Origin: Achromobacter dolens
Lineage (GTDB): Bacteria > Pseudomonadota > Gammaproteobacteria > Burkholderiales > Burkholderiaceae_B
Assembly: GCF_902859745.1 (NCBI RefSeq)
Contig: NZ_CADIJW010000008.1
Location: 1-64,000 of the forward strand
Length of the DNA: 64,000 nt
Reading direction: 5' to 3'
Position numbers and translations under genes: made by a program. Shown piece after piece: positions 15,210-26,090 of this stretch. The notes under the pieces were generated by a model that saw only the letters and a list, made by a program, of their open reading frames with translations, was not told the origin of the DNA and did not search any database. How positions within the stretch are numbered: position 1 is the stretch's first letter; every line of letters starts with the position of its first letter.

Positions 15210-16103
15210 TCAAAAGAACTCGCCCCGCCGCACCGCCAGCGCCGCCGCCGCCGCGCGCGTTTCCACGCCAAGCTTGACGTAGAGGTGCTCCAGGTGTTTG
15301 TTCACCGTCCGTGGCGCCATGCCCAGGATCTCGGCGATATCCCGATTGGTCTTGCCCTTGGCCAACCAGCGCAGCACATCGGCCTCGCGCGGCGTCAGGC
15401 CGTAGGCCGCGGCCAACGGCGCCGTCTCCTGCAATAGCAGCAAGGTCTCGCCGCTACGGCGCGATGCCGACAGACTCAGGGTCAGGCGTCCCCCCGCGCG
15501 GGTGATCACCAGGGGTTCAGCCGCCGGCCCGGCCGCCAGATTGCCCGCCACCCAATCCGCCAAGGGCGCCGGCAGCTCCGTCGCATCCTCGGCGCAACCG
15601 TAATACGCCGCCAGCCAGAGCCGCGCCTTGCCGGTCTTCCAGATCGGCAGCCCGCGAGCGTCCAGCGCCACCACCGCTCGCGCCGCCGCATCGATCGCGT
15701 CAAAGGCCGCCGACAGGCTGCGCGCATTGCGCAAATGCGTCTGCAGCCTGGCTACCACCACATCCGGATCCAGCGGCTTGGTCACGTAATCCACGCCGCC
15801 CACCCGAAACCCCTTCAACACGTGCTCGGGCTCGGTCAGGCCCGTCATGAACACCACCGGCACCTCCCCGGCCGCCGGATGCGCTTTCAGGCGCGCGCAG
15901 GTCTCGAACCCGTCCATTCCCGGCATCACCGCGTCGAGCAGCACGATGTCCGGCACCACGAAATCCACCCGTTCTATGGCCGACTGGCCGTCGGTTGCCA
16001 CCAGCACCTGATACCCCGCTTCATCCAATGCGGTGGAGAGCATTTTCAGATTGTCCGGGGCGTCATCGACCAGCATGACGAGGTTCTTATCGGGCGTGGG
16101 CAT
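15210..16103 (-). CDS. LuxR/NarL-type response regulator paired with the permease-kinase
   Basis: The 297-residue protein has a receiver domain (phosphoacceptor Asp57 in VLLDAVMPGMDG, Lys in YVTKPLDPD), a middle PAS-like linker (ARAVVALDARGLPIWK) and a C-terminal LuxR helix-turn-helix (LTPREADVLRWLAKGKTNRD). Its ATG at 16103 lies inside the end of the kinase gene, overlapping by 17 bases; a start at 16118 is also possible. It is the obvious output of the hybrid kinase and the best candidate to bind the paired palindromes before the amide-uptake operon. Confidence 0.9.
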   Translation of the reverse strand: MPTPDKNLVMLVDDAPDNLKMLSTALDEAGYQVLVATDGQSAIERVDFVVPDIVLLDAVMPGMDGFETCARLKAHPAAGEVPVVFMTGLTEPEHVLKGFRVGGVDYVTKPLDPDVVVARLQTHLRNARSLSAAFDAIDAAARAVVALDARGLPIWKTGKARLWLAAYYGCAEDATELPAPLADWVAGNLAAGPAAEPLVITRAGGRLTLSLSASRRSGETLLLLQETAPLAAAYGLTPREADVLRWLAKGKTNRDIAEILGMAPRTVNKHLEHLYVKLGVETRAAAAALAVRRGEFF

Positions 16104-19100
16104 GGTGACGCTGTACATGGTGTTTAAGCACTTGATTGAATTCGCTCAGTTGAAATTCGCCGGCCAGCATCCGCAGATGCGCCGTCAAATCCCGCGCTTC
16201 GGCCCGGCGGCCCTGTATTTCTTCCAGCTTCGCCTGTATGCCCTTGATGTAGCCCATGGCCCCCAGCTCCAGCAGCGCTTCGGCATCCTCGCGCTCCAGC
16301 GCCACCCGGTGCAGATCCCCTGCCGGCAGGGCCGCTTCCACCTGCGCCACCTGCCAGTCCAGCCTGAGCAGACGGCCCAACTGGCTCAGCAGGTCCTCGT
16401 ATATCACGGGCTTGGCAATGAACGCGTCATGCCCGCTCTGCGTCGGATCTTTCGGATCCAGCCCCAGGATATTGGCCGACAGCATCACAATCGGCACGGC
16501 CACGCCTTCATCCCGCAAGCGCCGCAGCGCCTCCCATCCGGTCATCTCCGGCATCGAGACGTCCATCAATATCAGGGCCGGCCGCAGCGTATGCACGCAG
16601 GCCAGGCAGGCCGCGCCATGCGGCGCTTCGTGCACCTCGAAGCCCAGGGGCTCGAGCAGGTCGCGCACCAGCCGCCGCTGTGACGGCTGGTCGTCCACCG
16701 TCAGGATCCGCAGCCGCTCGCCGCGATAACCCACCACCAGTCCCGACGGCCTGGCGTCGCTGCGGGGCGAGCGCACTTCCGGCAGAAACAGCTTGAGCGT
16801 GAACACACTGCCGCGGCCGACGGCGCTGCGCACCGTCAGCTCGCCGCCCATGATGCCGGTCAGCATGCGGCAGATGGTCAGGCCCAGGCCCGTGCCGGAT
16901 TCCGCCTCTTCCGCCGCCGCCCAACTGCGCTCGAAGGGCAGAAAGATGCGTTCCAGATCCTTGGCCGGTATGCCTCGTCCACTGTCCTGCACTTCGAACA
17001 GCACCATGTCCGCGGCAGACTTTACGCGCATCGACACCTGCCCGGCCGAGGTGAATTTCAGCGCATTGCTCAGCAGGTTGATCAGGATCTGCCGCAGCCG
17101 CTTCTCGTCGATATGCACGATGGAAGGCAATTCCGTCGCCTCATAGCGGAAGGCCAGCCCTTTGAGGGCGCTCTGCGGCCGGAACATCTGCACGATCTGC
17201 TCCAGAAACTCCGGCAGGCGCAGTTCGCTGTTCTCCAGCCGCAGCCTGCCCGCCTCGATGCGCGCGATGTCCAGCAGGCCATCGATCAGGCCGATCAAAT
17301 GCTTGCCGCTGCGATGAATCACGTCGATGGCCTCGCGCCGCGCGGGCGGCAAGCCCGGGTCGCGCTGCAGAATCTGCGCATAGCCCATCATGCTGTTCAG
17401 CGGCGCGCGCAATTCATGGCTCAGGCCGCCCATGAAGCGGCTCTTGGCCAGATTGGCGCTTTCAGCCGCTTCCTTGGCCTGCTGCAACTGCGCGTCGGTC
17501 TGTTTGTGCGCCTCGATCTCGCGCAGCAGCAAATGCGTCTGGCGATCCGATTCCTCTTGCGCCACGCGCCGGCTTTCATGGGCCAGCACCAGCCACCAGG
17601 CCAACACGCCGCCGATCAGCGACAACGCGGCGTAGAGTTTTAAGAAGGTGGGCCGCAAGCCCGAGGGGTCCAGGCCGGCCCGCATGTGGCTGGCGTACTC
17701 CTGGTAGTAGATCAGGCCCAGGATGCCCGCCAGCAGCGTCCCCATCCCCGCCACGATCAAGAGGTAGTGGCCCAGGCGGCTATGCAGCAGCGGCGTGACC
17801 CGCGCCGGCAACAGTCGGCCCAGGACCGCCTGCACCTGGTCCTTCAGCCGTCCCTGCTGCTTGCAGCGATCCTGGCAGCGGGCATCCAGCGTGCAGCACA
17901 AGGAACAGATGGGCCCGTTGTAGGCCGGGCAGTGCGCCATGTCGGGCTGTTCAAAACGGTTGGCGCAGATCACGCAGACATGATCCGAACCCGCCACGTC
18001 GACCGGCTTGCGCGCCAGGTTGTAGCGTCCCCGCGTGCGCCAGGCGATGACAGGCGCGCAGACGAACGCCGCCAGCAACGCCACAAAAGGCGACAATGCC
18101 TGCGCCAGCGCGCCCGCCGTGCCGGGGAACACGCCGGCGAAAGCCAGCAGGCCCAGCGTCATGGCGATCAGCATGCTGCCCACGCCGACCGGATTGATGT
18201 CGTACAAATAGGCGCGGCGGAACTCGATCCGCTTCGGCGACAGCCCCAGGGGCTTGTTGATCACCAGGTCGGCCACCAGCGCGCCGATCCAGGCCAGCGC
18301 AACGTGCGAGAACACCGCCAGCACATGCTCCAGCGCGCCAAACACGCCCATCTCCATCAGGACCACGGCGATCAGCACGTTGAACACCAGCCACACCACC
18401 CGGCCCGGATGGCTGTGCGTGATGCGGGCAAAGAAGTTGGACCAGGCCAGCGAGCCGGCATAGGCATTGGTCACATTGATCTTGACCTGCGAGACCACCA
18501 CAAAAGCGGTGACCAGCGCCAGCGCCAGGCCGGGATCGCTGACGACATAGGTGTAGGCCGCCAGATACATGTGGGTCGGGTCGCCGGCCTTGTCGGCTGG
18601 CGCGCCCCGGGACAGCGCCAGCCAGGCCAGGAAGGCCCCGCCCAGAATCTTGGCCGCGCCCGGCAGGATCCAGCCCGGGCCCGCGCAGACCAGGGCGAGC
18701 CACCAGCGCCGGCGGTTGGCCGCCGTGCGTTCGGGCAGAAAGCGCAGGAAGTCGACCTGTTCGCCGATCTGCGTCACCAGCGAAGCGGCCACCGCCACCG
18801 CCGAGCCGAACATCAGCAGATTGAAACCGCCGCCCCGGCCGTCATGGCCCGGAAACCGCAGGAACTCCTGCAACGTGCCCGGGTCGCGGAAGGCGACGAA
18901 GGCATAGGGCAGGAGCAGCAGCACCAGCCATATCGGCTGAGTCCATGACTGCAGCCGGCTGATGAAGGTGATGCCATAGGCCACCATGGGCAGGATGACC
19001 ACGGCGCACAGGAGGTAGCCGATGGACAGCGGCAGGCCGGTGGCCAGCTCGATGGCCAGCGCCATGATGGCCGCCTCCAGCGCAAAGAAGATGAAGGTGA

Positions 19101-19479
19101 ATGAGGCGTAGATCAGCGAGGTGATGGTCGAGCCGATATAGCCGAAGCCGGCCCCCCGCGTCAGCAGGTCCATGTCCAGGCCATGGCGCGCCGCGTAATA
19201 GGCGATCGGCAGGCCGGTCAGAAAGGTGACCAGGGCCACGGCGATGATGGCCCAGAAGGCATTGATGAACCCATAGTTCAGCGCCAGCGCGCCGCCGATG
19301 GCTTCCAGCGCCAGGAAGGACACTGCGCCCAGGGCGGTATTGGCGACGCGGAATTCCGACCATTTGCGAAACGACACCGGCGTGAAACGCAGGGCATAGT
19401 CTTCCAGCGTCTCATTGGCGACCCAGGTGTTGTAGTCACGGCGGATCTTGACGATGCGTTGGGGCGCGCTGGCGGACAA
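16087..19479 (-). CDS. NCS1-like permease / Cys-rich / histidine kinase / receiver fusion protein
   Basis: This 1130-residue protein fuses four modules. Residues ~1-480 form a polytopic domain resembling cytosine/purine/hydantoin (NCS1) permeases. Residues 502-539 hold eight Cys (502, 505, 517, 525, 528, 529, 535, 539) suited to binding zinc or an iron-sulfur cluster. Two more membrane helices (~570-590, 612-633) lead into HisKA with SHELRAPLN (phosphoacceptor His688) and an HATPase (N804, DSGRGIP 832-838, GTGLGLTI). A receiver follows (Asp973, Lys1023). A TTG start at 19479 with GGAG upstream fits best. It diverges from the amide ABC importer and overlaps the response regulator, so it likely senses amide or flux through the permease, by analogy to CbrA-type transporter-kinases. 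Confidence 0.85.
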   Translation of the reverse strand: MSASAPQRIVKIRRDYNTWVANETLEDYALRFTPVSFRKWSEFRVANTALGAVSFLALEAIGGALALNYGFINAFWAIIAVALVTFLTGLPIAYYAARHGLDMDLLTRGAGFGYIGSTITSLIYASFTFIFFALEAAIMALAIELATGLPLSIGYLLCAVVILPMVAYGITFISRLQSWTQPIWLVLLLLPYAFVAFRDPGTLQEFLRFPGHDGRGGGFNLLMFGSAVAVAASLVTQIGEQVDFLRFLPERTAANRRRWWLALVCAGPGWILPGAAKILGGAFLAWLALSRGAPADKAGDPTHMYLAAYTYVVSDPGLALALVTAFVVVSQVKINVTNAYAGSLAWSNFFARITHSHPGRVVWLVFNVLIAVVLMEMGVFGALEHVLAVFSHVALAWIGALVADLVINKPLGLSPKRIEFRRAYLYDINPVGVGSMLIAMTLGLLAFAGVFPGTAGALAQALSPFVALLAAFVCAPVIAWRTRGRYNLARKPVDVAGSDHVCVICANRFEQPDMAHCPAYNGPICSLCCTLDARCQDRCKQQGRLKDQVQAVLGRLLPARVTPLLHSRLGHYLLIVAGMGTLLAGILGLIYYQEYASHMRAGLDPSGLRPTFLKLYAALSLIGGVLAWWLVLAHESRRVAQEESDRQTHLLLREIEAHKQTDAQLQQAKEAAESANLAKSRFMGGLSHELRAPLNSMMGYAQILQRDPGLPPARREAIDVIHRSGKHLIGLIDGLLDIARIEAGRLRLENSELRLPEFLEQIVQMFRPQSALKGLAFRYEATELPSIVHIDEKRLRQILINLLSNALKFTSAGQVSMRVKSAADMVLFEVQDSGRGIPAKDLERIFLPFERSWAAAEEAESGTGLGLTICRMLTGIMGGELTVRSAVGRGSVFTLKLFLPEVRSPRSDARPSGLVVGYRGERLRILTVDDQPSQRRLVRDLLEPLGFEVHEAPHGAACLACVHTLRPALILMDVSMPEMTGWEALRRLRDEGVAVPIVMLSANILGLDPKDPTQSGHDAFIAKPVIYEDLLSQLGRLLRLDWQVAQVEAALPAGDLHRVALEREDAEALLELGAMGYIKGIQAKLEEIQGRRAEARDLTAHLRMLAGEFQLSEFNQVLKHHVQRHHAHAR

Positions 19480-19505: not shown

Positions 19506-19521
19506 TACGTCATTGAACGTA
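19506..19521. promoter_or_regulatory. Distal TACGT-N6-ACGTA palindrome
   Basis: TACGT at 19506-19510 and ACGTA at 19517-19521 form a perfect inverted repeat. A second copy lies 51 bases further on, nearly five helical turns away. The site lies in the divergent region between the permease-kinase and the amide importer and likely binds the LuxR-type response regulator. Confidence 0.65.
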
Positions 19522-19556: not shown

Positions 19557-19572
19557 TACGTCAATCAACGTA
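19557..19572. promoter_or_regulatory. Proximal TACGT-N6-ACGTA palindrome
   Basis: TACGT (19557-19561) and ACGTA (19568-19572) repeat the distal site, also sharing CA after the first arm and A before the second. Its centre is about 43 bases before the predicted start of the importer transcript, a position typical of class II activation. Confidence 0.65.
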
Positions 19573-19676: not shown

Positions 19677-20939
19677 ATGTCTGGCAAACCCCCTTTTGAC
19701 ACCGCGCCGGAACTGCCCTCGCGCCGGCGCCTGGCCCTGGCTTTTGCCTCCCTGCCGTTGTTGGGCATACCGGCCCTGTCGCGCGCGGCCGCCCCGGCCA
19801 CCTCGGCCATCAACAGCACCGGCCTGGCCATTACCGACACCGAAGTCACGGTGGGCCAGTTGCACTCGGCGACCGGCACCATGGCCATCAGCGAAACGGG
19901 GTCGATTCAATCCGAGCGCCTGGCCATCGAGCAGATCAATGCCATGGGCGGCATTCTGGGCCGCAAGATCAAGATCATCCAGGAAGACGGCGCCTCCGAT
20001 TGGCCGACCTTTGCCGAGAAGGCGCGAAAACTGCTGGTCAGCGACAAGGTCGCCACCGTGTTCGGCTGCTGGACCTCGGCCTCGCGCAAGGCGGTGCTGC
20101 CGGTGTTCGAGAAGGAAAACGGCCTGCTCTACTATCCGACCTTCTATGAAGGCCTGGAGCAGTCCAAGAACGTCTTCTACACCGGCCAGGAGGCCACGCA
20201 GCAGATCCTGTCCAGCCTGGACTGGCTGGCGCGCGAGAAGAAGGCGCGCTCCTTCTACCTGATCGGCTCCGACTACATCTGGCCGCGCACCTCCAACAAG
20301 ATCGCCCGCAAGCATATCGAGAACGTGCTCAAGGGCGAAGTGGTGGGCGAGGAATACTACCCGCTGGGCCACACGCAGTTCGGTTCGCTGATCAACAAGA
20401 TCAAACTGAAAAAGCCCGACGTCGTCTTCGCCGTGGTGGTGGGCGGCAGCAATGTGTCGTTCTACAAGCAGCTCAAGGCGGCCGGCGTCACCAGCGGCAA
20501 GCAAAAACTCCTGACCATCTCGGTGACCGAAGATGAACTGCTGGGCATCGGCGGGGAAAACGCCGAGGGCTTCTGGTCCTGCATGAAGTATTTCCAGAGC
20601 CTGGACAACGCCAACAACAAGAAATTCGTCGAGGCGTTCAAGGCCAGGTACGGCGCCAATGCCGTGATCGGCGACGTGACCCAGGCGGCCTACCTGGGCC
20701 CCTGGCTGTGGAAGATGGCGGTGGAGAAGGCCGGCAGCTTCGATGTCGACAAGGTGGTCGCCGCCTCGGCCGGGCTGGAGTTCAAGGAAGCGCCCGAAGG
20801 CTACGTCAAGATCGATCCCAATCATCACCTGTGGAGCAAGACCCGCATCGGCCAGATCCGCAAGGACGGCCAGTTCGACGTGATCTTCGAAACCCCGGAA
20901 CTGATCAAGCCCGATCCCTTCCCCAAGGGTTATCAGTAA
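19677..20939 (+). CDS. Amide/urea ABC transporter substrate-binding protein (FmdD/UrtA-like)
   Basis: The 420-residue receptor has a twin-arginine-like signal (SRRRLALAFASLPLLGIPAL, residues ~16-35) with cleavage near ALSRAA. The mature part shows UrtA/FmdD features: GQLHSATGTMAISETGS, VFGCWTSASRKAVLPVFE and LLYYPTFYEG. UrtA binds urea and FmdD binds formamide and short amides. The adjacent formamidase favours formamide. GAGGAG precedes the ATG. A perfect 20-base palindrome follows the stop, separating this abundant component from the membrane subunits. Confidence 0.9.
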   Translation: MSGKPPFDTAPELPSRRRLALAFASLPLLGIPALSRAAAPATSAINSTGLAITDTEVTVGQLHSATGTMAISETGSIQSERLAIEQINAMGGILGRKIKIIQEDGASDWPTFAEKARKLLVSDKVATVFGCWTSASRKAVLPVFEKENGLLYYPTFYEGLEQSKNVFYTGQEATQQILSSLDWLAREKKARSFYLIGSDYIWPRTSNKIARKHIENVLKGEVVGEEYYPLGHTQFGSLINKIKLKKPDVVFAVVVGGSNVSFYKQLKAAGVTSGKQKLLTISVTEDELLGIGGENAEGFWSCMKYFQSLDNANNKKFVEAFKARYGANAVIGDVTQAAYLGPWLWKMAVEKAGSFDVDKVVAASAGLEFKEAPEGYVKIDPNHHLWSKTRIGQIRKDGQFDVIFETPELIKPDPFPKGYQ

Positions 20940-20993: not shown

Positions 20994-21911
20994 ATGGAAT
21001 CCTTCTCCGATCTCGGGGCCATCCTGCTGATGCAGGGCTTCAACGGTCTATCGGTCTTCAGCGTGTTGCTGCTGATGGCCTTGGGCCTGGCGATCATCTT
21101 CGGCCAGATGGGCGTCATCAACATGGCCCATGGCGAGTTCCTGGCGGTGGGCGCCTATTGCACTTACCTCTGTTCCGAGCTGGTGCAGCAATACGCGCCC
21201 GGCCTGATGCCGGCCTATTTCTTCATCGCCATCCTGCTGGCCTTTGCCGTGACCTTCGGCCTGGGCTGGCTGGTCGAGTGGTTGATGATCCGCCATCTCT
21301 ACCGCCGGCCACTGGACACGCTGCTGGCGACCTGGGGCTTGTCGCTGGTGCTGCAGCAGACGCTGCGCTCGCTGTTCGGTCCGCGTGAAGTCAGCCCCAC
21401 GCTGCCCGACTGGCTGATGGGCTCCTGGCAGCCGCTGGACGGCGTGGATATCCCCATCAACGGCCTGTTCGTCATGTCCATCAGCATCCTGCTGACCGGC
21501 GCGCTGCTGCTGGCGCTGTTCCGCTCGACCTGGGGCCTGCACGTGCGCGCCACGGTGCAGAACCGGGCCATGAGCGGCGCGGTCGGCATCGACACCAAGC
21601 GCGTGGACCGTGTGACGTTCTCGCTGGGCTGCGGTATCGCCGGCATTGCCGGCGCGGCCTTCACCACCATCGGCTCCACCGGGCCCACCAGCGGCTCGCT
21701 CTACATCGTCGACACCTTCCTGACCGTGGTGTTCGGCGGCGCGGCCAGCCTTTTCGGCACCATCGCATCGGCCTTCGTCATTGCGCAGACGCAATCGATC
21801 TCGGAGTTCTTCATGACCGGCTCGATGGCGAAAGTGCTGACCCTGTCGGCCATCGTGATCATTCTGATGCTGCGCCCGCAAGGCCTGTTCAGCATCAAGG
21901 TACGCAAGTAG
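20994..21911 (+). CDS. Branched-chain/urea-type ABC transporter permease 1 (FmdE/UrtB-like)
   Basis: The 305-residue protein has about eight membrane helices and the LivH/UrtB hallmark FGQMGVINMAHGEFLAVGAY near residues 37-56. The segment SGAVGIDTKRVDRVTFSLG is the cytoplasmic coupling region. It forms the import pore with the next gene. Shorter than E. coli-type UrtB with its extra periplasmic N-terminal domain, it matches FmdE-like members. The start follows GGGAGCC. Confidence 0.88.
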   Translation: MESFSDLGAILLMQGFNGLSVFSVLLLMALGLAIIFGQMGVINMAHGEFLAVGAYCTYLCSELVQQYAPGLMPAYFFIAILLAFAVTFGLGWLVEWLMIRHLYRRPLDTLLATWGLSLVLQQTLRSLFGPREVSPTLPDWLMGSWQPLDGVDIPINGLFVMSISILLTGALLLALFRSTWGLHVRATVQNRAMSGAVGIDTKRVDRVTFSLGCGIAGIAGAAFTTIGSTGPTSGSLYIVDTFLTVVFGGAASLFGTIASAFVIAQTQSISEFFMTGSMAKVLTLSAIVIILMLRPQGLFSIKVRK

Positions 21912-21920
21912 GGGCGCATC

Positions 21921-23042
21921 ATGCAGAAATTCTTCCGCAATGTCGTGGGCGGGCGCGAAGGGCTGGCCGGACTGGCGATCCTGGCGCTGCTGCTTTTCGT
22001 GGTGTTTCCGCTGGCCCTGGACGTCTTCCGGCTCAATCTCATCGGCAAATACCTGTCCTATGCCTTTGTCGCGCTGGGGCTGGTGCTGTGCTGGGGCTAT
22101 GGCGGCATCCTGAGCCTGGGCCAGGGCGTGTTCTTCGGCCTGGGCGGCTATTGCATGGCCATGTTCCTGAAGCTGGAAGCTTCCACGCCGGACGCCACCA
22201 AAATCCAGTCCACGCCCGGCATCCCGGACTTCATGGACTGGAACCAGCTAACCTCGCTTCCCTGGTTCTGGGTGCCCTTCAAGAGCTTCTGGTTCACCTT
22301 GTTGGCGGTGCCGGTGTTGCCTTGCCTGCTGGCGTTGATCCTGGGCGCGGCGATGTTCAAGCGCCGCGTGGGCGACACCTACTTCGCCATCGTGACGCAG
22401 GCCGTGGCCCTGATTCTCTCGGTGCTCATCATCGGCCAGCAAGGGTGGACCGGGGGCGTCAACGGCATCACCGATCTGAAGACGCTGCTGGGCTGGGACA
22501 TCCGCACGGACAACGCCCGGCTGGCGTTGTACTTCATCAACGGCGCGCTGCTGTTTGCCTGCATCCTGTTCGGCCGCTACCTGCTCTCCTCCAAGCTGGG
22601 CAAGCTCCTGATGGCGATGCGCGACAAGGAAGAGCGCGTGCGCTTCTCGGGCTATGACGTCGCCAGCTTCAAGGTGTTTGTGTTCTGCGTGGCCGCCGTC
22701 TTCTCGGCCATCGGCGGAGCCATGTTCACCTTGCAGGTGGGCTTCATGTCGCCGTCGTTCGTGGGCATCGTGCCTTCCATTGAAATGGTCATCTTCGCCG
22801 CGGTCGGCGGCCGCCTGTCCCTGCTGGGCGCGGTCTACGGCACGCTGCTGGTCAACTTCGGCAAAAGCTATTTCTCCGAGAGTTTTCCGCAGCTCTGGCT
22901 GTTCCTGATGGGCGGGCTGTTCATTGCCGTCGTGATGGCGTTCCCCAACGGGCTGGCCGGCCTGTACAACCAATACATCCAGAAACGCCTGGCGCGCAGA
23001 ACCTCGCGGCGCGAGGCGGATGGCGCCACGGAGGCAGCATGA
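21921..23042 (+). CDS. Branched-chain/urea-type ABC transporter permease 2 (FmdF/UrtC-like)
   Basis: The 373-residue LivM/UrtC-type permease shows GILSLGQGVFFGLGGYCMAM near residues 58-77 and the coupling segment MAMRDKEERVRFSGYDVASF. The large insertion with PGIPDFMDWNQLTSLPWFW is typical of UrtC/FmdF members. It lies 9 bases after permease 1 and its stop overlaps the next start as ATGA. Confidence 0.88.
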   Translation: MQKFFRNVVGGREGLAGLAILALLLFVVFPLALDVFRLNLIGKYLSYAFVALGLVLCWGYGGILSLGQGVFFGLGGYCMAMFLKLEASTPDATKIQSTPGIPDFMDWNQLTSLPWFWVPFKSFWFTLLAVPVLPCLLALILGAAMFKRRVGDTYFAIVTQAVALILSVLIIGQQGWTGGVNGITDLKTLLGWDIRTDNARLALYFINGALLFACILFGRYLLSSKLGKLLMAMRDKEERVRFSGYDVASFKVFVFCVAAVFSAIGGAMFTLQVGFMSPSFVGIVPSIEMVIFAAVGGRLSLLGAVYGTLLVNFGKSYFSESFPQLWLFLMGGLFIAVVMAFPNGLAGLYNQYIQKRLARRTSRREADGATEAA

Positions 23043-23782
23043 ACCCCTCAGCGTTCGCCCTGTACATCGAAGGCCTGACCGTCTCGTTCAATGGCTTTGT
23101 CGCCGTCAATGACCTCAACCTGTATGTCGACCAGGGAGAGCTGCGCGTGGTCATCGGCCCCAATGGCGCCGGCAAGACCACGCTGCTGGATCTGATCTGC
23201 GGCCGCACCAAGGCCACCAGCGGCTCGATCCGCTTCAAGGACACGGAGCTGACCGGCCTGGCCGAGTACGAAATCGTGCGCGCCGGCGTGGGCCGCAAGT
23301 TCCAGACCCCCTCCATCTACGAAACCCTGTCCGTGCGCGAAAACCTGGAAGTGTCGTATCCGGCCGGGCGCAGCGTGCTGGGCGCGTTGACCTTCAGGCG
23401 CAGTCCGGCGGTGCTTGAACGGGTCGAGCAGGTGGCCGAAGATATCTTCCTGGCGGACCAGCTCGACCGCTCGGCGGAGTTGCTCTCGCACGGCCAGAAG
23501 CAATGGCTGGAGATCGGCATGCTGTTGATGCAGGAGCCCGAGCTGATGATGCTGGACGAACCGGTGGCCGGCATGAGCGTGTCCGAACGCGAGCGCACCG
23601 CCGAACTGCTCAATCGGATCAGCCGCAACCGATCGCTCATCGTGATCGAGCATGACATGGAATTCGTCAAGAACATCGCGCACAAGGTCACGGTGCTGCA
23701 CCAGGGCCGTGTGCTGGCCGAGGGCAGCATGGACAAGGTGCAGTCCGATCCGCGCGTGGTTGAAGTCTATCTGGGTCATTGA
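23039..23782 (+). CDS. ABC transporter ATPase 1 (UrtD-like)
   Basis: The 247-residue ATPase has Walker A GPNGAGKTT (40-48), a degenerate signature LSHGQKQWLEIGM and Walker B LMMLDEPVAGM. The SHGQKQWLEIGMLL sequence is characteristic of UrtD, as opposed to LivG. It energises amide import together with the following ATPase. Its start overlaps the stop of permease 2. Confidence 0.9.
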   Translation: MNPSAFALYIEGLTVSFNGFVAVNDLNLYVDQGELRVVIGPNGAGKTTLLDLICGRTKATSGSIRFKDTELTGLAEYEIVRAGVGRKFQTPSIYETLSVRENLEVSYPAGRSVLGALTFRRSPAVLERVEQVAEDIFLADQLDRSAELLSHGQKQWLEIGMLLMQEPELMMLDEPVAGMSVSERERTAELLNRISRNRSLIVIEHDMEFVKNIAHKVTVLHQGRVLAEGSMDKVQSDPRVVEVYLGH

Positions 23783-23796
23783 AGCCGGGAGGCAAC

Positions 23797-24489
23797 ATGT
23801 TCAATATCGCTGGCCTGGTGTCAGGCTATGGCCAAAGCAAAGTCATCCATGGCGTCGACCTTGCGGTGGCGGCCGGTGAAATCGTCGCCGTCATGGGCCG
23901 CAACGGCATGGGCAAGACCACGCTATTCAAGACCATGATGGGCCTGCTGCCCGCCATGCAGGGCTCGATCTCGCTGGAGGGCAAGGCGCTCGAGCGCCTG
24001 GAGAGCCATCAGCGCGTGCGCAGCGGGGTGGCCTACGTGCCGCAGGGCCGCATGATCTTCCCGACGCTGACCGTGGAAGAGAACATCCGCACCGGCATGC
24101 GCGGGCGGGCGCTGCGCGACACCATCCCGGAAGACATCTACGCCCTGTTTCCGGTGCTGCACGAAATGCGCGGCCGGCGCGGCGGCGATCTGTCGGGCGG
24201 CCAGCAACAGCAGCTTGCCATCGCCCGCGCCCTGGTCACCAACCCGCGCGTGCTGCTGCTGGACGAGCCCACCGAGGGCATACAGCCGTCCATCATCAAG
24301 GAAATCGCCCGCAGCCTGCTGGAGATCCGCAAGCTGCGCAACCTGGCCATCGTGGTGTCCGAGCAGGTCTTGAGTTTCACCATGCAAATCGCCGACCGCC
24401 TCATCGTGATCGACAAGGGCCGCTTCGTGCACGAAGACCCGCGCGAGCGCGTTGATGAACAGACGATCAGCAAATACCTGTCTGTCTGA
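23797..24489 (+). CDS. ABC transporter ATPase 2 (UrtE-like)
   Basis: The 230-residue ATPase has Walker A GRNGMGKT (34-41), signature LSGGQQQQLAIARAL and Walker B LLLLDEPTEGIQPSII, matching UrtE/LivF subunits. The ATG at 23797, with GGGAGG before it, is preferred over upstream in-frame codons. It lies 14 bases after the first ATPase. The importer is complete with this gene. Confidence 0.9.
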   Translation: MFNIAGLVSGYGQSKVIHGVDLAVAAGEIVAVMGRNGMGKTTLFKTMMGLLPAMQGSISLEGKALERLESHQRVRSGVAYVPQGRMIFPTLTVEENIRTGMRGRALRDTIPEDIYALFPVLHEMRGRRGGDLSGGQQQQLAIARALVTNPRVLLLDEPTEGIQPSIIKEIARSLLEIRKLRNLAIVVSEQVLSFTMQIADRLIVIDKGRFVHEDPRERVDEQTISKYLSV

Positions 24490-24518
24490 ATTCATTGTCC
24501 ATCTCAAAGGAGCATGAC

Positions 24519-25748
24519 ATGCCTGAAACCCTGATCAAGGTCGACCTGGCCCAATCCCCCTACGAAAACGAAGGCGTGCACAATCGCTGGCATCCCGACA
24601 TCCCCATGGCGACGTGGGTCAGGCCGGGCGATGACTTCGTGCTCGAAACCTACGACTGGACCGGCGGCGCGATCAAGAACGATGACGATGCCTCCGATGT
24701 GCGCGATGTGGACCTGTCCACGGTGCACTTCCTGTCCGGCCCGGTCGGCGTCGAAGGCGCCGAACCCGGCGACCTGCTGGTGGTGGACTTGCTCGATATC
24801 GGCGCCAAGCCGGAGAGCCTGTGGGGCTTCAATGGCTTTTTCAGCAAGAACAATGGCGGCGGCTTTCTGACCGAGCACTTCCCGTCGGCGCAAAAGTCGA
24901 TCTGGGATTTCGAAGGCATGTTCACCACCTCGCGCCATATCCCGGGCGTGCGCTTCGCCGGCCTGATCCATCCGGGCCTGATCGGCTGCCTGCCCGACCA
25001 GGCGCTGCTGGACAAATGGAATGCGCGCGAGCAGAAGCTGATCGACAGCGACCCCGAGCGCGTGCCGCCCCTGGCCAATCCGCCGGCGCCCAAGACGGCG
25101 CACATGGGCAAGCTCAAGGGAGCCGAGCGCGATCGCGCGGCCGCCACCGGCGCGCGCACCGTGCCGCCGCGCGAGCATGGCGGCAATTGCGACATCAAGG
25201 ACCTGTCGCGCGGGTCCCGGGTGTTCTTTCCGGTCTACGTCAAGGGCGGCGGCCTGTCGGTCGGCGACCTGCACTTTTCGCAGGGCGATGGCGAGATCAC
25301 CTTCTGCGGCGCCATCGAAATGGCCGGCTGGGTGCATATGCGGGTGTCGCTCATCAAGGGCGGCATGGCCAAGTACGGCATCCGCAATCCCATCTTCAAG
25401 CCCAGCCCCATCACGCCCAACTACAAGGACTACCTGATCTTCGAGGGCATTTCGGTCGATGAAGGCGGCAAGCAGCACTATCTGGACGTGCACATCGCCT
25501 ATCGCCAGGCCTGCCTGAACGGCATCGAATACCTGAAGAAGTTCGGTTACTCGGGGGCGCAGGCGTATTCGATCCTGGGCACGGCGCCGGTGCAGGGGCA
25601 CATCAGCGGCGTGGTGGACATTCCCAACGCCTGCGCCACGCTGTGGCTGCCCACCGAGATCTTCGACATCGACATCCAGCCCAACGCGCTGGGCGACGTG
25701 CCGCAGATAGCGCGCGGCATGGACATGCCCATCGCCAAAGACCTGTGA
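24519..25748 (+). CDS. fmdA: Formamidase
   Basis: The 409-residue enzyme matches the FmdA/acetamidase family in length and motifs: the N-terminal DLAQSPYENEGVHNRWHPD, HGGNCDIKDLSRGS near residue 225, and FSQGDGEITFCGAIEMAG. It hydrolyses formamide to formate and ammonia in the cytoplasm. Genes for an amide importer precede it and fmdB follows, the same grouping as in Methylophilus methylotrophus. AAAGGAG before the ATG gives a strong ribosome site. This is the key evidence that the transporter and the sensor kinase serve formamide or short amides. Confidence 0.92.
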   Translation: MPETLIKVDLAQSPYENEGVHNRWHPDIPMATWVRPGDDFVLETYDWTGGAIKNDDDASDVRDVDLSTVHFLSGPVGVEGAEPGDLLVVDLLDIGAKPESLWGFNGFFSKNNGGGFLTEHFPSAQKSIWDFEGMFTTSRHIPGVRFAGLIHPGLIGCLPDQALLDKWNAREQKLIDSDPERVPPLANPPAPKTAHMGKLKGAERDRAAATGARTVPPREHGGNCDIKDLSRGSRVFFPVYVKGGGLSVGDLHFSQGDGEITFCGAIEMAGWVHMRVSLIKGGMAKYGIRNPIFKPSPITPNYKDYLIFEGISVDEGGKQHYLDVHIAYRQACLNGIEYLKKFGYSGAQAYSILGTAPVQGHISGVVDIPNACATLWLPTEIFDIDIQPNALGDVPQIARGMDMPIAKDL

Positions 25749-25757
25749 GGAGCCGCC

Positions 25758-26090
25758 ATGCCGCTCTATGACTACCGCTGCCAGGACTGCGGCGAGTTCT
25801 CCGTGCTGAGACCTTTGTCGCAATGGCGCGACCCCGCGCCTTGCCCCGAATGTGGCGGCGCCTGCGAGCGTTTCGTCAGCGGCGCGCCGGCGGTCTCGGC
25901 GCTGTCCTCGGCCATGAACCGCGCCCGCGCCGCCAACGAACGCGCCGCCCACGAGCCGCGCAGCACCCGTGGCGGTCACGGCATGGGTTGCGGTTGCTGC
26001 GCCGGCGCCAAGGCCGCCGGCCGGACCCGCCAGACGGCCGGCGGCGGCAAGACCTTCGCCGGCGCGCGGCCGTGGATGATCAGTCACTGA
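25758..26090 (+). CDS. fmdB: FmdB-family zinc-ribbon protein
   Basis: The 110-residue protein opens with MPLYDYRCQDCGEF and CPECGG, the four-Cys zinc ribbon of the FmdB family, followed by a flexible tail containing GCGCCAG. FmdB was named as a putative regulator of formamidase; its mechanism is unknown. It begins 9 bases after fmdA with GAGGAG upstream. The next gene is convergent and no clear terminator is visible in 26091-26172. Confidence 0.88.
   Translation: MPLYDYRCQDCGEFSVLRPLSQWRDPAPCPECGGACERFVSGAPAVSALSSAMNRARAANERAAHEPRSTRGGHGMGCGCCAGAKAAGRTRQTAGGGKTFAGARPWMISH

Follow-up and report, generated by a model that had tools for sequence, protein, structure and literature searches.

This analysis concerns a stretch of 64,000 nucleotides from Achromobacter dolens (contig NZ_CADIJW010000008.1, positions 1 to 64,000; hereafter, the window) and, within it, the 1130-residue protein termed P0001, encoded on the reverse strand from a TTG start codon. 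Examination of P0001 with Pfam revealed a HisKA domain with a phospho-acceptor His, an HATPase_c domain and a receiver (REC) domain with a phospho-acceptor Asp, such that P0001 is a hybrid histidine kinase, as an initial annotation made from the letters of the window had proposed. The kinase is preceded by a transporter-like domain and a short Cys-rich segment. A response regulator gene adjoins the P0001 gene on one side, while genes for a predicted amide/urea importer and a formamidase lie on the other, in divergent orientation.

Domain organization and relatives of P0001

Relatives of P0001 were collected by a contig scan, with the best 80 of 581 confirmed loci serving as a named set. These nearly full-length proteins come, for example, from Bordetella, Herbaspirillum, Bradyrhizobium, Methylotenera and Nevskia; the A. 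ruhlandii kinase is 99% identical to P0001. The alignment considered below comprises 121 rows (P0001, 80 named and 40 sampled proteins), of which 120 are distinct (L046 and L228 being identical), while gene surroundings were considered at 121 loci (80 named and 41 sampled) and distribution in 299 Pseudomonadota genomes. The phospho-acceptor His688 is found in all 121 rows and Asp973 of the receiver in 119, with the remaining two rows lacking a receiver.

Family-averaged hydropathy revealed eleven main hydrophobic stretches up to residue 477, one of which (residues 121-171) could hold two transmembrane helices (TMs), and two further stretches at residues 574-591 and 610-628. Given this pattern, the Cys-rich segment is predicted to be cytosolic, lying between a 12-TM transporter and the last TM hairpin. 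The AlphaFold model of residues 8-665 presented a mean pLDDT of 82 and a pTM of 0.80. In P0001, Pfam returned no cytosolic sensor domain, whether PAS, GAF or another; likewise, residues 490-678 yielded no PAS domain and no family above cut-off, although whether Pfam includes a STAC model was not checked.

The N-terminal domain belongs to the NCS1 family

To assign the N-terminal domain, a profile of 40 homologues was compared by hhalign with 26 proteins of PF02133 (NCS1) and 29 proteins of PF00474 (SSS), following the removal of rows that were too short (one of 27 for NCS1, two of 31 for SSS). The comparison with the PF02133 proteins gave 99.7% (E 2.6e-24, 394 columns), as opposed to 0.3% (global) and 5.6% (local) with the SSS proteins; UrtB and UrtC, used as controls, gave at most 0.4%. 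In agreement, the five best Foldseek matches of the AlphaFold model were Mhp1 and CodB (E 2.9e-10 to 3.3e-8), with the next match at E 5.4e-6. The NCBIfam cytosine permease model also matched the N-terminus of P0001 (E 2.3e-8), but at 33 bits against a cut-off of 326. Single-sequence searches with residues 1-497 revealed no transporter match in Pfam, PF02133 included, or, with phmmer, in the PDB; profile A1 found no match among PDB sequences, and hhalign against the single Escherichia coli CodB sequence was weak (40% local, 0.1% global). As such, profile-profile and fold comparisons were needed. By both, the N-terminus of P0001 (residues 8-495) fits a transporter family, and that family is NCS1 and not SSS; the initial annotation had likewise read an NCS1-like permease in place of the SSS domain of CbrA.

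The eight-Cys segment and the NCS1 domain travel together

The initial annotation had counted eight Cys within 38 residues, and these are found at positions 502, 505, 517, 525, 528, 529, 535 and 539. All eight are retained in each of the 121 rows. Indeed, the mean frequency of the commonest residue is highest in this segment (81%), followed by the NCS1 domain (75%), HisKA (73%), HATPase_c (68%) and REC (58%).

Searches of the 299 genomes with a profile of the Cys segment returned 42 strong matches (E 2.1e-17 or better), which were spread over 38 genomes and lay without exception in reading frames of at least 894 residues, together with three weak partial matches taken as chance. For a profile of the NCS1 domain, the strong matches (E 1.5e-172 or better) again numbered 42 and were in those same 38 genomes. 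A 552-residue frame of G193, a fragment from G236 and a frame at C30 in the genome of A. dolens itself matched the NCS1 profile more weakly. Because at most 23 (Cys) and five (NCS1) candidates were scored per genome, remoter relatives may have been missed. Two members of the family, of 894 and 899 residues, lack the receiver, and both are encoded near fmdA. The shared genomes and these receiver-less members indicate that the NCS1 domain occurs jointly with the Cys segment, and that the pair can drive more than one kind of kinase end. The receiver-less proteins (L126:2502-5183 and L127:3666-6362; the same proteins occur in L253 and L254) carry another HisKA/HATPase end. At L254, a gene encoding REC-HisKA-HATPase adjoins the kinase gene, with an OmpR-type regulator (REC and Trans_reg_C) lying beyond on the other strand.

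When modeled in isolation (pLDDT 76.6), the Cys segment presented a knuckle, a hairpin and a helix, with a CxxC at the start of the helix. Foldseek returned no significant match (best E 0.49), with RING, PHD and FYVE domains being frequent among the top matches. We infer two zinc sites, formed by Cys502/505/525/528 and Cys517/529/535/539; for the segment, a role as a two-zinc linker is likelier than one as a sensor in its own right. A metal or redox input through the Cys cluster is possible. In L002 and L006, a long Gly/Ala-rich insert with extra Cys residues is found just before the segment.

Genes for amide and urea use accompany the kinase gene

The features of the locus are listed in Table 1. 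The regulator gene, which the initial annotation had described as overlapping and of the LuxR type, overlaps the kinase gene by 32 bases and encodes Response_reg (residues 14-125) and GerE (residues 241-295) domains, as in NarL/FixJ regulators. The importer, formamidase and fmdB genes that the kinase gene had been said to face were also recognized, with UrtA to UrtE each scoring above the cut-off of the curated Urt models. The substrate of the importer is predicted to be an amide or urea. The FmdB-family protein also scored above the cut-off of the NCBIfam model RPWMISH_prot (E 4.5e-40).

Table 1. Positions of P0001, its domains, the partner regulator, the facing genes and the candidate operators in the window.
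Feature	Position	Strand	Evidence
NCS1-Cys8-TM2-HisKA-HATPase_c-REC hybrid kinase P0001, 1130 residues	16087..19479	-	ORF, Pfam, alignment, hhalign, Foldseek
NCS1 transporter-like domain of P0001, residues 8-490	18010..19458	-	NCBIfam, hhalign, Foldseek, controls
Lys333 of P0001; Lys in 121/121 rows, at a Na2 hydroxyl-ligand position in most alignment readings	18481..18483	-	
Eight-Cys segment of P0001, residues 502-539; predicted treble-clef-like, two putative metal sites	17863..17976	-	
TM13-TM14 hairpin of P0001, residues 574-628, leading into the kinase	17596..17760	-	Hydropathy, model
HisKA of P0001, residues 678-744, phospho-acceptor His688	17248..17448	-	Pfam
HATPase_c of P0001, residues 791-899	16783..17109	-	Pfam
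Receiver of P0001, residues 925-1033, Asp973	16381..16707	-	Pfam Response_reg
Partner response regulator, REC and GerE (LuxR/NarL-type output)	15210..16118	-	Pfam
Candidate operator 1, TACGTCATTGAACGTA, inverted repeat	19506..19521	.	Intergenic alignment
Candidate operator 2, TACGTCAATCAACGTA, center 112 bases before the urtA start	19557..19572	.	Intergenic alignment
fmd-type UrtA, substrate-binding protein	19677..20939	+	Pfam, NCBIfam
UrtB-like permease	20994..21911	+	Pfam, NCBIfam
UrtC-like permease	21921..23042	+	Pfam, NCBIfam
UrtD-like ATPase	23039..23782	+	Pfam, NCBIfam
UrtE-like ATPase	23779..24489	+	Pfam, NCBIfam
Formamidase FmdA	24495..25748	+	NF045496, E 4.8e-229; start codon as listed, unrefined
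FmdB-family zinc ribbon protein	25758..26090	+	NCBIfam

A response regulator gene adjoins the kinase gene in 80/80 named and 39/41 sampled loci (78 and 38, respectively, when half-length matches are required), the two sampled loci without one being those of the receiver-less members. By the same half-length criterion, genes for fmd-type UrtA and/or FmdA are found nearby in 58/80 named loci (two of which also contain urease genes) and in 29/41 sampled loci. Urease genes or urea-type UrtD only were found in 20/80 named and 9/41 sampled loci, and neither type in 2/80 and 3/41, respectively. Of the last three, L132 and L241 end at contig ends, while L250 contains a UrtA of 39% identity. The two classes overlap, in that five loci from Methylophilaceae (L050, L058, L065, L069 and L077), which were assigned to the urea type, combine urease genes with Urt genes that share 60-77% identity with those of the window. 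Four genomes contain two copies of the kinase; in three of these, one copy is fmd-type and the other urea-type (L128/L227 in G246, L130/L131 in G158 and L129/L226 in G225), while in G091 both copies lie near fmdA.

On a quick tree built from two outgroups and 89 members below 95% identity (91 rows in all), label F required seven changes (shuffled mean, 25.6), label U six (22.1) and F versus U alone five, on a tree in which several branches are weak and near relatives inflate the clustering of labels. In terms of distribution, fmd-type UrtA (at least 72% identity) occurs in 29 of the 299 genomes, all of which are among the 38 that contain the kinase. Two genomes with a UrtA of only 43-45% identity contain no kinase.

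A candidate operator precedes urtA

Alignment of the kinase-urtA intergenic region from eight Achromobacter and Bordetella records revealed two inverted repeats, the second of which is exact in all eight, while the first is exact in three and contains one mismatch in the other five. The repeat halves fit heptamers of the form TACGTYN in a 7-2-7 arrangement, which we take to resemble NarL sites. In the 6.29 Mb host genome, there are exactly two occurrences of the strict form, TACGT-N6-ACGTA, and both lie in the kinase-urtA intergenic region. A scan of this region for consensus promoters returned no match.

The core of the repeat, TACG-N8-CGTA, was found in 56 of 59 kinase-urtA intergenic regions (58 named and that of the window), as compared to a mean of 0.22 matches over all 59 regions following base shuffling. 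Across the 121 loci (2.49 Mb), 97 of 115 core matches lie between -1000 and +100 of the kinase start. A core near the kinase start was seen in 77/87 fmd-type loci, 5/29 urea-type loci and 1/5 loci of neither type. In four loci of family f45 (L238, L240, L249 and L250), the box lies 131 to 170 bases before the aligned UrtA start, even where 2 to 6 kb separate UrtA from the kinase. In seven loci from Oxalobacteraceae (L017, L022, L028, L041, L044, L052 and L072), the box precedes the aligned UrtA start by 1.2 to 1.3 kb.

Extra strict palindromes at five places in other genomes, four inside a script-called ORF and one between ORFs, were regarded as chance; none was seen before amide or urea genes upon examination by eye, with no family search having been made. 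A second fmd-type urtA, near ureA, ureC and ureG, was noted in G028 (L259:8219-13726).

Putative ligand and Na2 sites

In Mhp1, Ser312 and Thr313 are ligands of the Na2 site. Residues of P0001 were matched to those of characterized transporters using hhalign to NCS1 rows and to CodB, together with an alignment of L137 with Mhp1. The residues considered were CodB Trp108, Phe204 and Thr278/279 and Mhp1 Gln121 and Asn318, with roles as given in the available portion of PMC9379551. In this manner, Phe131 was aligned with CodB Trp108, Glu135 with Mhp1 Gln121 and Asn338 with Mhp1 Asn318. In TM8, Lys333 falls on CodB Thr278 when no gap is allowed and on CodB Asn280 with the gap introduced by hhalign, while via L137, it falls on Mhp1 Thr313 or Ser312. 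Of the four alignment readings, three thus put Lys333 on a Na2 hydroxyl position and one puts it on CodB Asn280. If this placement is right, the canonical Na+ site would be changed. In TM6, CodB Phe204 falls on Leu234 without gaps and into a gap in hhalign.

Glu135, Gln237, Glu240, Gln241, Lys333 and Asn338 are invariant in the 121 rows, Leu234 is found in 120, and position 131, which corresponds to the stacking aromatic of TM3, is Phe in 103 and Leu in 18. By these alignments, the invariant Glu135, Asn338 and Lys333 would lie at the ligand and Na2 sites. According to the same portion of PMC9379551, NCS1 proteins retain a stacking Phe or Trp in TM6. P0001 has no aromatic residue at positions 225-243 of TM6, and Phe, Trp, Tyr or His was found at positions 233-242 in none of the 121 rows. 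Phe232, absent from P0001, is nonetheless present in 77/121 rows, such that the loss of the TM6 aromatic is clear for only some members, which weakens the argument against a ligand with a ring and leaves it short of decisive. From these residues, a small, non-ring ligand and an Na+-independent site would be expected.

When four urea-type lineages (24 of 25 rows, with L019 left out) were compared with fmd-type rows, none of the named site residues switched with operon type, which fits a single class of ligand, H2N-CO-X, for both operon types. Three positions (168, 233 and 485) present one majority residue in all four urea-type lineages that is in the minority in fmd-type rows. Of these, position 233, next to Leu234, is Ala in the four urea-type lineages and Ser in 66% of fmd-type rows, and may reflect a small change in specificity.

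Proposed function and its alternatives

The computations show the order of the domains in P0001, its homology to NCS1 and its NCS1 fold, the conservation of the family, the linkage and co-occurrence of the genes, and the candidate operator. The reading that we favor, and hold to be somewhat probable, is that P0001 is an NCS1 transceptor for urea and short amides that controls urtABCDE-fmdAB via its LuxR-type regulator. The gene surroundings in many bacteria suggest that the protein switches on the uptake and breakdown of urea and of small amides, formamide among them. A small amide (formamide or similar here, urea in relatives encoded beside urease) would bind the old transport site, and movement of the transporter halves would reach a dimeric kinase by way of the cytosolic eight-Cys module and the TM13-TM14 hairpin. 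Phosphate would then be transferred from His688 to Asp973 and on to the neighboring LuxR-type regulator, which would bind the TACG-N8-CGTA boxes and activate the divergent urtABCDE-fmdAB genes, and perhaps its own operon as well. We infer the ligand, the control of the kinase by binding (with or without transport), the presence of zinc, the route of the phosphorelay, and box binding and activation; the sensing of binding without transport is equally as possible as the sensing of flux.

Of the amide or pyrimidine input suggested in the initial annotation, it is the amide that has gained, given the synteny and phyletic co-occurrence, the conservation of the candidate operator, and the occurrence of a standalone NCS1 relative at a locus with amidase, AmiC-like and AmiR components. 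Pyrimidine finds no support, given the lack of a TM6 aromatic residue at positions 225-243 of P0001 and given that no pyrimidine genes were recognized among the neighbors inspected, although Phe232 in other members keeps this from being decisive. 

Several points nonetheless weigh against the proposed amide or urea receptor. Synteny and co-occurrence do not name a ligand, and the loci counted are related to one another, with the counts uncorrected for kinship. The Mhp1 and CodB alignments are at about 20% identity, with the register uncertain in TM6 and TM8. No match to urease alpha was found in the host genome, such that urea would not serve as a nutrient here via urease, and formamide or another short amide would be the likelier nutritional signal. 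As for the operator, no core was found near the kinase in 10 of the 87 fmd-type loci and only five of the 29 urea-type loci have one, the strict palindrome occurs somewhere in 104/299 genomes, and no core was found at the second fmd-type urtA of G028, which was left out of the putative regulon for this reason.

In one alternative, the NCS1 domain would serve mainly as an anchor or independent transporter, with the kinase responding to a signal in the cytosol (nitrogen status, ammonium or redox state, for example). CbrA offers a precedent, in that its kinase signals without the transporter domain and an intracellular signal has been proposed, according to the available portion of PMC7918813, a further point against an amide or urea receptor. 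Still, we consider such an arrangement unlikely, as Pfam shows none of the domains, such as PAS or GAF, by which P0001 might sense a cytosolic signal, and as the transporter domain is better conserved than are the kinase domains, with its polar site residues invariant in all 121 rows.

A more distant prospect is that the eight-Cys segment is the main sensor, responding to redox or to a metal (e.g., zinc, or nickel for urease), with the transporter only setting basal activity. The eight invariant Cys, in what is the most conserved part of the protein, would fit this idea, as would the restriction of the 42 strong Cys-profile matches to the kinase family (among the at most 23 candidates scored per genome) and the location of some members beside urease, a nickel enzyme. 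On the other hand, the spacing and the model of the segment resemble a structural treble-clef zinc pair, albeit with no significant PDB match (best E 0.49), and all eight Cys are kept beside formamidase and urease alike. Finally, it would be surprising were the ligand a nucleobase, hydantoin or other ring, and the amide operon a downstream nitrogen-scavenging response. Membership in NCS1 speaks for a ring, and Phe232 of TM6, seen in 77/121 rows, could stack were the register shifted, but P0001 contains no aromatic residue at positions 225-243, no row contains one at positions 233-242, and the neighbors recognized are amide and urea genes.

Comparison with known systems

CrbS (MxtR)/CrbR (ErdR) and PrlS/PrlR are like P0001 and its partner in combining a transporter-like N-terminus, a hybrid kinase and a separate response regulator. 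CrbR belongs to the LuxR family. These systems differ from P0001 in relying on an SSS domain, with STAC and PAS domains in MxtR, and in responding to acetate or ionic strength rather than to amides. PrlR is also of the LuxR family, according to the portion of PMC7918813 available. In CbrA/CbrB of Pseudomonas, as in P0001, a transporter of the LeuT superfamily is N-terminal to the histidine kinase, yet CbrA consists of an SLC5/SSS domain with STAC and PAS domains and no REC (PMC7918813, in part), while P0001 contains an NCS1 domain with an eight-Cys segment and a TM hairpin. The accessible part of PMC13022988 places CbrA K196, a Lys linked to proton coupling, in the Na2 site, as is probably also the case for Lys333 of P0001. 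In Ks-Amt5 of Kuenenia, a nitrogen-nutrient transporter likewise became the sensory domain of a kinase, although there the domain is an ammonium transporter (Amt) and not NCS1 (PMC5764959, in part). CodB and Mhp1 share fold and family with residues 8-490 of P0001, but are standalone Na+-coupled transporters, whereas in P0001, Lys333 occupies what is likely the Na2 position, and the aligned position in TM6, Leu234, carries no conserved aromatic residue.

Fusions of a kinase with an SSS domain or with an ammonium transporter are thus known (PMC7918813, PMC5764959 and PMC8534201, each in part), while searches of the open-licence PMC library revealed no NCS1-kinase fusion. P0001 could, at close to an even chance, represent an undescribed class of transceptor, in which an NCS1 domain with a Lys in the Na2 site serves as a receptor for urea and short amides and is joined by a two-zinc treble clef and a TM hairpin to a hybrid kinase. 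One bacterial fmd cluster is reported to be induced by formamide and urea, with no inducer sensor described in the available portion of PMC10781810. In the cluster of Methylophilus methylotrophus, the available text describes a putative positive regulator within the cluster and no inducer sensor; at the P0001 locus, by contrast, a kinase-regulator pair faces the cluster. If the proposal is correct, the NCS1-kinase family would provide the missing inducer sensor of fmd and of many urea/urease operons in Pseudomonadota, and two transporter families, those of P0001 and CbrA, would have converged on a Lys in the Na2 site upon becoming kinase sensors. As a candidate fmd inducer sensor, the family comes with a partner regulator, putative boxes and specific residues, and it extends beyond SLC5 and Amt the transporter families in which the conversion of a transporter into a receptor can be studied.

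Standalone NCS1 relatives

The 552-residue frame of G193 is a PF02133 protein (E 3.6e-9) without a kinase. It adjoins genes encoding a carbon-nitrogen hydrolase, a Peripla_BP_5 protein and an AmiR_N/ANTAR protein (L234:9449-14481), such that the locus appears amidase-like, with the Peripla_BP_5 protein probably in the place of AmiC. This standalone NCS1 protein, related to the sensor domain, is a candidate amide transporter. The frame at C30 of the host genome (L256:3481-9264) encodes a divergent NCS1-like permease with no Pfam match and adjoins LamB/YcsF, biotin carboxylase and CT_A_B genes, presumably the make-up of a 5-oxoprolinase (lactam) operon. Both relatives point to amides over nucleobases. 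In the C30 permease, examination by eye revealed an Arg where the sensor has Lys333.

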